Origin: Clostridia bacterium
Lineage (GTDB): Bacteria; Bacillota; Clostridia; Christensenellales; Borkfalkiaceae
Direction: 5' to 3'
Assembly (NCBI GenBank): GCA_017545865.1
Contig: JAFWXO010000025.1
Span: forward strand, 1 to 64,000
DNA: 64,000 bases
In this document: piece by piece, positions 18,581-60,860 of the stretch
How the letters are laid out: each line of letters opens with the position of its first letter
How positions within the stretch are numbered: position 1 is the stretch's first letter
The notes under the pieces: generated by a model
Database searches by the model: none
Seen by the model: only the letters and a program-made list of their open reading frames with translations
What the model was told of the DNA's origin: nothing
Made by a program: the position numbers and the translations under genes

Positions 18581-19582
18581 ATGAAAGTTTTATTAAATAA
18601 TAAAAAGCCTTTTTTCAAGGCTAACTTGCACGCTCACTCCACTTATTCAGACGGAAACTTAACACCGCCTAAGTTAAAAGAAATTTACAAAGAAAAGGGT
18701 TATAGCGTTCTTGCCTATACCGATCACGAACATTTAATCAACCACTCTTATTTGAACGACGAGAACTTTTTGGCTATAACTTCAGCCGAACTTGCGGTGA
18801 AGGAATTTCCAAAACAGTCAACGCTCGTTAACTATAAAATGAGAGTTGCCCACTTTAATATTTACGCGTTAAACCCAAGTAGTACCGTAACCCCGTGTTA
18901 TTCGTCAGTTTACGATCATTACGTTAACGCTGAAAATAAAGATTTAATTAAGTTTGACGGGGAATACGAGCGAGTTTACACAAAAGAAGGAATTAACGCC
19001 CTTATCAAAGAGTGCAAAGAAAAAGGGTTTTTGGTTTCTTACAACCACCCAACTTGGTCGCTTGAAAACGCCACCGACTATCTTTCTTACGAAAACCTTG
19101 ATTTCGTTGAAATTTACAACCATGGTTGTTGCGCAAACGGTCGCCCTGACGACGAGCACGCCTTTGACGATTTTTTGCGCTCCGGCAAGAAAATTTACTG
19201 CACTTGTTGTGACGATAACCACAACCCCGACTATCCAAACCCGTTTAAAAACGATTCGTTCGGCGGGTTTACTATGATTAACGCCGATAAACTTGACTAC
19301 GGCTCGATTATGAGCGCCCTTCAAAACGGCGAGTTTTACGCGTCAACCGCTCCGCTTATTTATAACCTTACGATTGACGGAAATAAAGTTTCAATAGAAA
19401 CTTCCCCCGTAAAAGCGATATTTTTAACAACGGAAGGTCGCCGTTCAAACGCGACTTACGCAACCGATGAAAACGGCGTTACTAAAGCCGAGTTTGAAGT
19501 GGATAAAAAAGACGGGTATTTCAGAATTACCCTTATTGATTTTGAAGGCAAAAAAGCCTATACTCAAGCATACGAAATTTAA
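18581..19582 (+). CDS. PHP-domain metal-dependent phosphoesterase
   Basis: This 333-residue protein has the PHP metal-ligand motifs: HAHSTYSDG near residues 17-25, YTDHEH near 47, SYNHPTW near 153 and TCCDDNH near 208. Residues beyond ~250 form a beta-rich tail seen in other PHP members of carbohydrate loci. It may hydrolyse a sugar phosphate or phosphodiester; the substrate is unknown. It is the last gene of the eight-gene operon, 9 bases after the xylanase-like gene. Transcription probably ends in the hairpin at 19642-19678. Confidence 0.85.
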   Translation: MKVLLNNKKPFFKANLHAHSTYSDGNLTPPKLKEIYKEKGYSVLAYTDHEHLINHSYLNDENFLAITSAELAVKEFPKQSTLVNYKMRVAHFNIYALNPSSTVTPCYSSVYDHYVNAENKDLIKFDGEYERVYTKEGINALIKECKEKGFLVSYNHPTWSLENATDYLSYENLDFVEIYNHGCCANGRPDDEHAFDDFLRSGKKIYCTCCDDNHNPDYPNPFKNDSFGGFTMINADKLDYGSIMSALQNGEFYASTAPLIYNLTIDGNKVSIETSPVKAIFLTTEGRRSNATYATDENGVTKAEFEVDKKDGYFRITLIDFEGKKAYTQAYEI

Positions 19583-19632
19583 AAAAACGCTCCGCTTTAG
19601 GAAGTTCCTATTAGGGAATTTTAATAGTAAAT

Positions 19633-19954
19633 AAAAGTGTAGCCCACCAAACTTTGCAAAAAGCAAAATATGGTGGGCTTTTCTTATCCAAAAAATTAAG
19701 TTAAATTAGTTTAGCCGAGCGTTAGCGAACGCCAACTGCGTAAGCAGTTATATTTTTAGCCTTGTGGCTAAAAGTGATATTGTTTACAAAGTAAACAGTG
19801 TTATTTTGGCAAAGCCAAAGTGATATTAAATAAATCCACAACTTGCCGTCAGGCAAATATCACCGCCGTAGGCGATATCACTTGCCGTTAGGCAAATCTC
19901 ACAAATCCGTTTACGGATTTATTTAGTTGCCGAATCCCTTGTAGGGACTCGGCT
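19633..19954. repeat. Multi-hairpin intergenic repeat, copy A
   Basis: This 322-base noncoding element fills the 386-base gap between two convergent genes. It opens with a terminator-like stem (GCCCACCA at 19642, TGGTGGGC at 19678, TTTTCTT after), then carries hairpins GCGTT-agcg-AACGC, AACTGC-gtaa-GCAGTT, TTTTAGCC-ttgt-GGCTAAAA, GTTTAC-aaa-GTAAAC, TTGGC-aaa-GCCAA, TTGCC-gtca-GGCAA, CGCC-gta-GGCG, TTGCC-gtta-GGCAA, AATCCG-ttta-CGGATT and GCCGAaTCCC-ttgta-GGGAcTCGGC. Linkers read AGTGATAT in the left half and ATATCAC in the right half. A second copy lies at 42215-42499. No open frame is convincing. Confidence 0.85.
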
Positions 19955-19968
19955 TTTACGGGGCGTTT

Positions 19969-20604
19969 TTAAGCGTATAAGGAAAGTTTTTTTATAAGCT
20001 TTGATATATATTTTGAAAGTTCAATTCTCTCTTCAGCTTCGGGTTGGCGGGTTATAAATCTTAATAGATAAACTTCAAACTCTTCAAGTTCAAGATAATC
20101 GCTTTCGGATATATCTTTTTCCTTTAAAGAGTTTATAAGTTCCTTAACGTAAGAAACGTTTAAATACTCGCTCGTTATATCTTCCTTTTTAAAGTATTTA
20201 ACGGCGTTTGAAGTTGGCATAGTTTCTTCCACTTTCGTATCCATAACTTCCTTTTTCTTTTCGCCGTTTGGCCTTTTTGCCGTTGCTTTTTTTATTGCGG
20301 AAAAAAATATTAGCGCGCAAACGGAATATAAGGTTAAAAAAGCGTAAACGTAATTTGCGGAGATGAAAAGCCGTTTAACGCCCAAATAATCTTGAACGGA
20401 AAAGTATGCCGAAATTATTATTCCAACAAGCGAAAAACACAAAAAGTAAACGCCGCTGTGCTCCTTTTTTGACGATAAAGTTAGCGTGAATTCAACTAAA
20501 AACGCCAACACGTTACTTAGAAATAGCGACAACGCTATAATACAAGCGTACTTTCCAAAATCAAAACATAACAACTTAAAAACGGGGACGATAGATTCAA
20601 TCAT
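19969..20604 (-). CDS. Uncharacterised membrane protein with C-terminal cytoplasmic domain
   Basis: I do not recognise this 211-residue protein. It shows three likely membrane segments (about residues 17-40, 49-67 and 84-104), followed by a charged domain from 105 with a Lys-rich stretch and a helical region (VKELINSLKEKDISESDYLELEEFEVYLL). The start has a GGGGATA site. It lies 30 bases beyond the addA stop on the same strand, so it may be transcribed from the addBA operon. Confidence 0.65.
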   Translation of the reverse strand: MIESIVPVFKLLCFDFGKYACIIALSLFLSNVLAFLVEFTLTLSSKKEHSGVYFLCFSLVGIIISAYFSVQDYLGVKRLFISANYVYAFLTLYSVCALIFFSAIKKATAKRPNGEKKKEVMDTKVEETMPTSNAVKYFKKEDITSEYLNVSYVKELINSLKEKDISESDYLELEEFEVYLLRFITRQPEAEERIELSKYISKLIKKLSLYA

Positions 20605-41583: not shown

Positions 41584-42168
41584 ATGTATTTTTTAGTTGA
41601 CGTTATTGCAATAGCGTTCGTTTTGTTCTTTACTCTTTACGGACTTAAAGCAGGCTTTACTAAATCTACGCTTGACGTGGTTTTGGTTTTAGGTTGCGTT
41701 GCAGGCGCTGGGCTTCTCGCTTATTTTTGCGCCGTTTGGTTTACCAAAATCGGCTGGACGAACGAATTTCAATCGGTAATACTTAGATTGTTTGGCAACT
41801 CTAAGATTTCAGGCGCGCAACCCATAATAGAAAAGGTATGCTACTGGATAGCGTTCGCTTTCTTCGTGCTTATTTCTTTTATCGTTTGCTATATCGTTTT
41901 AAGTCTACTTAGAAAACTTTTAGTTTCGCTTATAAAAAAATTTAACGGGCTTGCAGTTTTTGGAGTGCTCGATAAAGTTTTAGGCGTTACCGTTAACCTT
42001 GCGGTAACTGCTGGCATCGTGCTTTGCCTTATGGCGTTGTTCTTCGCCCTTGCAAAAAGCGGAAAGTACGCTTACGGCGATGAAGTTTTAAGAGCGAGCG
42101 AAGTTTTAAGCCACGTTCACAAAATCAACCCCTTAAATTCTATTTTCGCAGGAATTTTCGGAGCGTAA
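41584..42168 (+). CDS. CvpA-like membrane protein
   Basis: This 194-residue protein has four predicted membrane segments: residues ~3-25, 31-52, 83-110 and 127-158. The layout and the LYGLKAGFTKSTLDVVLVL start resemble CvpA-family proteins, whose role in colicin production or envelope stress is poorly understood. The start has an AAGGAAT site and lies 15 bases after glnS, so the two genes are co-transcribed. The hairpin at 42224-42260 may terminate the operon. Confidence 0.7.
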   Translation: MYFLVDVIAIAFVLFFTLYGLKAGFTKSTLDVVLVLGCVAGAGLLAYFCAVWFTKIGWTNEFQSVILRLFGNSKISGAQPIIEKVCYWIAFAFFVLISFIVCYIVLSLLRKLLVSLIKKFNGLAVFGVLDKVLGVTVNLAVTAGIVLCLMALFFALAKSGKYAYGDEVLRASEVLSHVHKINPLNSIFAGIFGA

Positions 42169-42214
42169 AATTCGGTAATAATATTAAACGCCCATAAGGA
42201 TTTTAAGCAATAAC

Positions 42215-42499
42215 AAAAGTGTAGCCCACTATACTTCGCTTTATGCGAAATATGGTGGGCTTTATCTTTACCAAAAAATTAAGTTAATGTAGTTATATTT
42301 TTAGCCTTGTGGCTAAAAGTGATATTGTTTACAAAGTAAACAGTGGTATTTTGGCAAAGCCAAAGTGATATTAAATAAATCCACAACTCGCCGCAGGCGA
42401 ATATAACCGCCATAGGCGATATCACTTGCCGTTAGGCAAATCTCACAAATCCGCTTGCGGATTTATTTAGTTGCCGAATCCCTTGTAGGGACTCGGCTT
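42215..42499. repeat. Multi-hairpin intergenic repeat, copy B
   Basis: This 285-base noncoding element occupies most of the gap between convergent genes 41584 and 42515. It matches copy A (19633-19954) module by module but lacks the two-hairpin insert that A has at 19719-19749. It opens with the terminator-like stem GCCCAC...GTGGGC (42224-42260) and ends with the GCCGAaTCCC-ttgta-GGGAcTCGGC stem. Several differences from copy A are paired T:A to C:G changes within stems. Confidence 0.85.
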
Positions 42500-42514
42500 G
42501 CCGTGGGCTTTTTT

Positions 42515-42640
42515 TTATCCTATATGATCTTCTTTTTTTAAAAATAAACTATCGCAAGAAATATAAAGTGGTTGTTTTGGCGTTTCAACTTTAACCTCTT
42601 CAAAAAACCAGTTGTAAATTTTATCGAATAACTTTTTCAT
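42515..42640 (-). CDS. 41-residue small protein of unknown function
   Basis: This short ORF starts MKKLFDKIYNWFFEEVKVET and ends KKEDHIG. A clear AAAGGAG site lies about 10 bases upstream of its ATG. The N-terminal ~15 residues form an amphipathic aromatic helix. I do not recognise it. Its stop sits at the edge of the copy B repeat. Confidence 0.5.
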   Translation of the reverse strand: MKKLFDKIYNWFFEEVKVETPKQPLYISCDSLFLKKEDHIG

Positions 42641-42732
42641 AGCATTACTCTCCTTTGTTTGTTGTAATGCTATTTTATTATTCTATACGTGACAACAGTC
42701 TGTCATATTATAAAAGTTTTTGTCGAAATTTT

Positions 42733-60576: not shown

Positions 60577-60589
60577 ATAGCCATCAAAC

Positions 60590-60860
60590 AAACCTATGAG
60601 AAAGAGTAGTAGGTTGCTAAAACTTTTTCTAAGAGAGCCGTAGGCGGTGGGATTACGGTAAAAAGTCGCAACTAAATGGACTTTCGAGGGCGAACGGAAA
60701 AACCTTTCAAGGTTGAGTATGGAAGACGGGGTAACTTGCCGTAATCAATAGTTAGCATATATTCGTATGCGTAAAGTGGGCGTTTTAACGCCAAGCCGGG
60801 TGGCACCACGGGTAGTAAACAACCTGTCCCAGCAATTTTGATTGCAGGGGCAGTTTTTTT
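60590..60860 (+). ncRNA. T-box leader, tryptophan specifier (UGG)
   Basis: The leader holds a stem I with AGAGAG near 60631, the specifier region TAAATGGACTTTCGAGG (TGG at 60677-60679), and the conserved T-box core GGGTGGCACCACG (60798-60810). It ends with the terminator CTGTCCC-AGCAATTTTGATTGC-AGGGGCAG and a T run (60824-60860). Uncharged tRNA-Trp would bind the specifier and the T-box bulge and prevent termination, so trpB2 is induced when tryptophan is short. Confidence 0.92.

Follow-up and report, generated by a model that had tools for sequence, protein, structure and literature searches.

Background

REP and BIME sequences, the type associated with RAYT transposases, are hairpins with a fixed flanking tag that occur in both orientations and form arrays between genes. 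MITEs are noncoding sequences of about 300 nt with inverted ends and many copies, according to the sections of the source cited here (PMC11389934). The IS1595-family elements MTnSag1 and tISCpe8 bear an oriT and are portrayed, in the cited parts of their description, as very small elements without a relaxase that are mobilised in trans (PMC5704250). IS1272, of the IS1182 family, targets inverted repeats 3' of genes and, as far as the cited sections go, makes no target duplication (PMC5678879). The oriT of pMV158 is described as containing three overlapping inverted repeats (PMC5863519). Finally, Gut-1 is listed in the relevant part of its original report as a certain RNA and a probable noncoding RNA that comes from human gut metagenomes only (Weinberg and others 2010, PMC2864571). 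Three kinds of small element are thus on record in these sources: MITEs, hitchhikers that carry only an oriT, and elements of the MTnSag1 type (PMC11389934, PMC5704250).

The window analysed here, meaning the whole 64,000-nucleotide stretch of contig JAFWXO010000025.1 from a Clostridia bacterium, contains two copies, A and B, of a unit that can be compared with each of these systems. The GltX protein of the host is 72% identical to that of Candidatus Borkfalkia, the nearest among named records. Copies A and B probably belong to a mobile element of about 325-366 bp that is noncoding and non-autonomous, bears an oriT and is presumably mobilised. Their array core is Rfam family Gut-1 (RF01706), which is filed as 'Gene; sRNA'. 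The core of the element shares with that family its S1-S2 hairpin and its three mini-hairpins, whose linkers are of the GTGATAT type. Here, though, Gut-1 makes up only the central part of a larger unit that is repeated and oriented and bears a putative oriT.

Like MITEs, the unit is short, noncoding and multicopy and has inverted ends, although these are imperfect as judged by eye. Unlike MITEs, it has an oriT-like site and hairpin arrays inside, it has a terminator loop as its target, and no parent IS was found in the searches described below. IS1272 also uses hairpins as its target, but it is described in the cited sections as replacing the target hairpin, whereas the arms remain at the present element. 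MTnSag1 and tISCpe8 measure 1.7-2.0 kb, encode a transposase as well as resistance and have an oriT that is thought, in the passages cited, to be fortuitous; the present element is about 0.33 kb long and noncoding. Tagged hairpins in both orientations and intergenic arrays are shared with REP and BIME sequences, but the hairpin sequences of the element vary freely and all nine genus genomes lack Y1 transposases.

A sequence-only reading of this DNA had concluded that the repeat matches no known REP, BOX or MITE design. This does not hold for the core, which is Gut-1, for the first hairpin, which resembles an oriT of the MobV type, or for the MITE-like size, imperfect inverted ends and copy number. 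What may be new is the combination: a noncoding 0.33-kb unit with an oriT-like site, hairpin arrays and terminator-loop insertion is unmatched in the literature searched. That search, which included few subscription journals, returned no paper using the phrase 'Gut-1 RNA' and no description of such an element.

Architecture of the repeated unit

In the Gut-1 orientation the order of parts is a terminator arm, H0, CAAC, S1, S2, three GTGATAT-hairpins, S3, three ATATCAC-hairpins, the oriT-like module, an inverted end and the other terminator arm. The parts of both copies are listed in Table 1. The module-for-module alignment of copy A at 19633-19954 with copy B at 42215-42499, first made from the letters alone, is borne out, and both copies are real. 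About eleven hairpins can indeed be counted in copy A, and the linkers are inverted about a centre, TAAATAAATCC (19827-19837), as had been described. The coordinates proposed for copy A do cover the array but are slightly short in extent: judged on cross-genus alignments, the unit reaches from about 19598 to 19953. Copy B is without two of the hairpins of copy A (19719-19749), and its Gut-1 match, on the minus strand, scores 45.1 bits and so falls below the cut-off of 50.

Table 1. Parts of copies A and B, in window coordinates
Feature	Position	Strand	Remarks
Copy A, left arm of host terminator, AAAAACGCTCCG	19583-19594	.	Pairs with 19959-19970; outside the unit
Copy A, left terminal inverted repeat, imperfect, TAGGAAGTTCCTATTAGGGAATTTTAAT	19598-19625	+	The two best cross-genus alignments begin some 34 nt ahead of the next module
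Copy A, MobV oriT-like module	19633-19679	+	IR1 CTTTGC/GCAAA inside IR3 AGCCCACCA/TGGTGGGCT; IR2 degenerate
Copy A, two additional hairpins, GCGTT/AACGC and AACTGC/GCAGTT	19719-19749	+	Missing from copy B
Copy A, outer half-array of three hairpins, TTTTAGCC/GGCTAAAA, TGTTTAC/GTAAACA and TTTGGC/GCCAAA	19754-19819	+	Plus-strand linkers GTGATAT
Copy A, long-range arm S3, TAAATAAATCC	19827-19837	+	Partner 19915-19925
Copy A, inner half-array, three hairpins	19843-19902	-	Minus-strand linkers GTGATAT or GTGAGAT; covariation
Copy A, Rfam RF01706 Gut-1 match	19852-19929	-	53.7 bits, cut-off 50
Copy A, local hairpin of S2 (AAATCCG) and S1 (GGATTTATTTA)	19903-19925	-	Competes with the long S1:S3 stem
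Copy A, terminal hairpin H0, GCCGAATCCCTTGTAGGGACTCGGC	19929-19953	-	Carries the right inverted end
Copy A, right arm of host terminator, CGGGGCGTTTTT	19959-19970	.	Flank test; outside the unit
Copy B, left arm of host terminator, AAACGCCCA	42186-42194	.	After cvpA-like gene 41584-42168; weak flank-test result
Copy B, shortened left end, TAAGGATTTTAAG	42195-42207	+	
Copy B, MobV oriT-like module, GTGTAGCCCACTATACTTCGC..GCGAAATATGGTGGGCT	42215-42261	+	IR1, IR2 and IR3 present
Copy B, two three-hairpin half-arrays about S3 (42372-42382), then S2/S1 (42447-42469)	42299-42469	.	
Copy B, terminal hairpin H0	42473-42497	-	
Copy B, right arm of host terminator, TGGGCTTTTTTT	42504-42515	.	

S1 has two possible partners, either S2 in a short stem or S3 in a stem of about 11 bp. 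The three segments vary jointly between genera (TAAATAAATCC, TATATTTGCC, TAAGTTTGTCC and GAAATTCGCC, read by eye), and the linker also varies at this level (GTGATAT, GTGAAAT, GTGAAGT). All 11 pairs of the S1:S3 stem are kept in 41 of 41 copies, although ten of them are uninformative because they are invariant. Simpler arrays, often with four hairpins, are found in other families without the oriT-like module. An oriT is thus not present in every Gut-1 array.

Two other structures in the window were recorded in passing. A small minus-strand open reading frame at about 42518-42671 (MKKLFDKIYNWFFEEVK...) has its ribosome site and start inside a hairpin, AGCATTAC/GTAATGCT. The letters of this hairpin differ in congeners G004 and G005 yet still pair, and it is perhaps a translation-control hairpin. 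A T-box leader lies on the plus strand at 60587-60834 (93.2 bits, cut-off 93).

Conservation of base pairing

Three matched changes between the two copies had been read from the sequence, and all are present. In the first stem, CTTTGC/GCAAA in copy A corresponds to CTTCGC/GCGAA in copy B. TTGCC/GGCAA (A, 19843-19856) is replaced by TCGCC/GGCGA (B, 42388-42400), and in the hairpin at 19903-19920 CCGT/ACGG of copy A becomes CCGC/GCGG. The first hairpin also has an unpaired difference, where copy B has AGCCCACTA against TGGTGGGCT and copy A a perfect AGCCCACCA. In hp2 the difference between the copies is confined to the loop. Folding of 19633-19962 yields z scores of -10.2 and -11.3 on the two strands, and 0 of 100 shuffles are as low.

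The proposal that the fold is kept, whether by selection or by copying of both arms, is supported by a larger alignment of 41 distinct copies. Two copies with an insert were left out beforehand, 50 copies were aligned, and nine of a third subtype, which were out of register in MAFFT, were then dropped. Pairing is maintained in 98.1% of 1,025 cells, and 11 of the 25 pairs are changed on both sides. Among these hairpins, which share descent, 71 double-change cells are observed compared to 20.8 (s.d. 3.3) in shuffles, with 0 of 500 shuffles reaching this level. Further pair types show no excess (15, against 16.5 in shuffles). The controls were shuffles and slid registers, and in the latter 26-50% of positions are paired.

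RNA and DNA forms of the fold

It had been left undecided from the letters whether the folded form is RNA or cruciform DNA. The larger sets lean toward DNA, since G-U pairs are rare and the loops follow a DNA-type rule. In the 41-copy alignment, G-U is found in 5 of 574 hairpin cells, which makes it as rare as C-A. A second set comprises 287 distinct linker-unit-linker sequences chosen without a pairing criterion. Its 276 hairpins have 96.2% Watson-Crick pairs, and G-U wobbles account for 0.6% of pairs. In the GTGATAT reading of this set, A.C mismatches outnumber G.T mismatches by 20 to 8 (p 0.036). The corresponding counts are 12 and 0 in a strict set, 5 and 5 in the aligned set, and 28 and 30 in a loose set that is spoilt by register errors. 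This asymmetry gives a weak lean and no proof. A single transcript was rejected as the folded form. The wobble-strand test, intended to identify the RNA strand, gives results that differ across sets, and its direction is reversed between the half-arrays.

Loop sequences are more uniform in the ATATCAC reading. GNA is found in 66 of 122 triloops, compared to 119 of 904 in other hairpins from the same loci, and GNNA in 63 of 102 tetraloops, compared to 98 of 1,020; these counts overstate independence because the hairpins share descent. The closing pair is C-G for 107 of the 122 triloops and 87 of the 102 tetraloops (controls, 190/452 and 210/510). A cUNCGg-type preference was sought in the loops, and the second pair has no C-G excess (48 C-G, 52 G-C). 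Nor do they follow a GNRA rule, because the third base of GNNA is a purine in 31 of 63 cases. As DNA, hairpins of the C(GNA)G type have exceptional stability. For the DNA hairpin CGCGAAGCG, a Tm of 88.5 C is given in the part of the report cited (PMC10527192). The use of C(GNA)G and C(GNNA)G loops without the preferences of RNA hints at a DNA fold.

The first hairpin and MobV relaxases

A 25-nt core of the first hairpin recurs upstream of relaxase genes of the Mob_Pre family (PF01076). At 21 of 30 Mob_Pre loci the core, scored over 23 nt, has 15-23 matches, and the other nine have 13-14. When 24 site/gene pairs were picked by hand among the matches listed, every site was on the same strand as its Mob_Pre gene and 55-225 nt upstream of it. 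In sequence, the first hairpin matches these sites upstream of Mob_Pre genes and is oriT-like, of the MobV type.

Across 46 distinct modules, IR3 is AGCCCAC/GTGGGCT in 29 and AGCACAC/GTGTGCT in 9, while IR1 is CTTCGC/GCGAA in 29 and CTTCAC/GTGAA in 5. All seven pairs of IR3 form in 38 modules and six of seven in the other 8, at least five of six IR1 pairs form in 41, and IR2 averages 6.7 of 8. IR1 and IR3 covary across this set, and the first of the paired changes between copies A and B falls in IR1. The module is like a MobV oriT of the pMV158 type in its three overlapping inverted repeats, its core AAGTATAG-NNNN-CTATACTT and the occurrence of such sites upstream of the family's Mob_Pre genes. 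It differs in that no relaxase gene follows in the element and, by eye, in that the oriT-like site and the mob gene have the opposite relative orientation to that in pMV158. A 4,070-nt contig of this genome (C2) encodes a Mob_Pre relaxase, truncated where the contig ends, and a large serine recombinase. Co-occurrence of the element with Mob_Pre is absent across 201 genomes (7 shared, 9.4 expected, p 0.40).

Insertion sites

Copies of the element sit in the loops of differing rho-independent terminators. The two flanks of one copy are complementary to each other but different from those of other copies, for example, AAAAATCCTAGAC..GTCTAGGATTTTT at locus L252. Matched and mismatched flanks were compared for the 41 of 54 elements that could be parsed (13 were unusable). 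The mean score is 13.3 for matched flanks and 8.8 for mismatched ones. Pairing exceeds the 95th percentile of mismatched flanks in 26 of 41 elements and does not in 15, and an element's own flank takes the top rank in 16 cases and one of the top two ranks in 26. None of 10,000 permutations of the flanks reaches the observed sum. Copy A scores 12.5, which is at the threshold, and its own right flank ranks 6th of 41; copy B scores 8.5, which is not above the 95th percentile, and its own right flank ranks 12th.

Neighbours, counted as open reading frames of at least 80 codons on both sides, could be assigned for 47 elements: 26 pairs are convergent, 19 codirectional and 2 divergent. The element is beside a gene end in 45 of the 47, with a median distance of 25 nt past the stop of left-hand genes pointing at it. 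The left terminator arm of copy A directly follows the stop codon of gene 18581-19582. Elements would be found just past gene ends, held between old terminator arms, because insertion targets the terminator loop. The place occupied by copy B, 3' of cvpA-like genes, has a plain terminator in five of six congeners, the sixth not being readable. For copy A, the arrangement of gene and plain terminator is seen in G008, the sole clear case among the congeners read. A separate array with GTGATGT-type linkers is located at L089 (G002, 3' of a cvpA-like gene), just past a plain terminator orthologous to the B site.

Copy number, distribution and transposase searches

The element has many copies, and these can be nearly identical between genera and end sharply. 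Seven copies in this genome, among them A and B, are complete or almost so, and matches to element A are present in seven of nine genus genomes. Gut-1 is found in 66 of 201 genomes of the family (14/18 genera), with up to 22 matches in one genome, and in 75 of 296 genomes of the order (42/126 genera). The E. coli control genome gave a match below the cut-off in the family and order searches alike. In the fetched loci, a script identified 54 elements that combine the first hairpin module with the S1 end, and a named subset of these was compared pairwise. The best cross-genus pair, from g4 and g2, has 98.2% identity over 325 nt. Next comes a pair from g2 and g3 with 95.9% over 366 nt, and further top pairs have 80-91%. 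In the two best pairs the 600-nt flanks do not align, and similarity begins some 34 nt ahead of the first module and stops 25-36 nt past S1. Plasmids, phages and viral contigs were also searched and yielded no copy, only one weak 49-nt phage match.

The earlier reading had named a transposase-linked MITE as the finding that would count against it, but searches for Y1, PF13751 and the end sequence revealed no linked transposase. Y1 (RAYT) transposases are present in 0 of 9 genus genomes, and across 201 genomes Y1 and the element share 19 where 22.7 are expected. A RAYT/REP origin was rejected for the genus on both counts. PF13751, which we take to be an IS1182-type transposase domain, occurs in 1 of 201 genomes, and that one is not this genome. 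An IS1182/IS1272 helper was rejected because of this rarity. An autonomous IS with the ends of the element was not found either: the end pattern, searched for one subtype, occurs at five places in the nine genus genomes, and each is an element.

Models for mobility and alternative explanations

An oriT-bearing mobile element of this kind would insert into the loops of rho-independent terminators. A MobV relaxase acting in trans, such as the one on contig C2 with its large serine recombinase, might nick the oriT of the element, which would then pass through single-stranded DNA. In the single strand, the mini-hairpins could fold as DNA and serve to protect the strand or to provide landing sites for proteins. 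A putative recombinase that prefers hairpin targets would finally put the element into terminators. A bolder version of this scheme, which we judge quite unlikely, posits a distinct class of relaxase-driven single-stranded-DNA elements. Here, a MobV relaxase bound to the oriT would both mobilise the element and drive its insertion into extruded terminator hairpins. The arrays of extra-stable DNA mini-hairpins of the C(GNA)G type, taken in error for a small RNA, would be its working fold, and the oriT-less arrays across the order its relatives or ancestors.

It is unlikely, but a real possibility, that the unit is a classical MITE which depends on a stem-loop-targeting DDE transposase and in which the oriT-like hairpin is a fortuitous passenger. 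It accommodates the size, the noncoding nature and the imperfect inverted ends, the subtype agrees at both ends (by eye), and there is precedent in the targeting of inverted repeats 3' of genes that the cited sections ascribe to IS1272 (PMC5678879). PF13751 in a single genome of 201 argues against it, as does the lack, in the genus, of any other carrier of the end sequence. Moreover, IR1 and IR3 covary in the 46 distinct modules, and a passenger need not keep its pairing. Template switching (palindrome correction) might have produced the paired changes without selection on the fold, which would suit double changes with almost no wobble intermediates. This is improbable, since switching would invert the loops, whose orientation is in fact constant (GNA/GNNA when read on the ATATCAC strand); the excess of A.C over G.T in the GTGATAT reading (20 to 8; strict 12 to 0, aligned 5 to 5) also speaks against it.

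The same pairing could belong to a true small RNA, noncoding or acting as a regulator, with the copies as paralogous RNA genes. The Rfam type and the listing of Gut-1 in the cited part of the original report (Weinberg and others 2010, PMC2864571) favour this, and the choice of S1 between S2 and S3 is switch-like. It is very improbable in the face of up to 22 matches per genome in both orientations, 26 of 47 elements between convergent genes, near-identity between genera with sharp ends, and G-U in only 5 of 574 cells without UNCG or GNRA loop preferences. The least probable explanation is that the copies are functional 3'-end structures (terminators or RNA-stabilising, REP-like structures) under host selection. 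The median distance of 25 nt from the stop and the 45 of 47 elements beside a gene end fit such a role, but the copies are at unrelated genes, congeners do without them, and target choice accounts for their placement.

If A and B are oriT-bearing mobile DNA, then an RNA family listed since 2010 would be largely a mobile DNA element. A gene-less unit of 0.3 kb would scatter conjugation start sites in gene-end signal loops, and chromosomes of uncultured gut bacteria would be locally mobilisable by one of the smallest conjugation hitchhikers. Covariation is the usual proof of a structured RNA, but it could also stem from hairpins that act as DNA. Wobble rate, loop type and strand offer a direct way to discriminate between the two.

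Related sequences at other loci

Several loci contain sequences that touch on parts of the element. Mini versions at L288 (about 1485-1620) and L290 (about 1558-1690) combine an oriT-like hairpin with a second, short one, a terminator and an ATCCCTA end but have no array. Another dispersed repeat, AAGACGTTAGAAACAAGCAAGACAAGGC, is present at L091, L013 and L014, and one copy lies 3' of the cvpA-like gene of G004. At L081, L082 and L083, Gut-1 arrays are located immediately 3' of tRNA genes and their terminators. The far side of the arrays at L082 and L083 carries a sequence like a tRNA T-arm, GGTTTGAGTTCGAATCC, which recalls an attachment-site duplicate. At L281, L283 and L284 (genera g8/g10), differing sequences are recombined exactly at the oriT-like core, and one of these loci adjoins a large serine recombinase.
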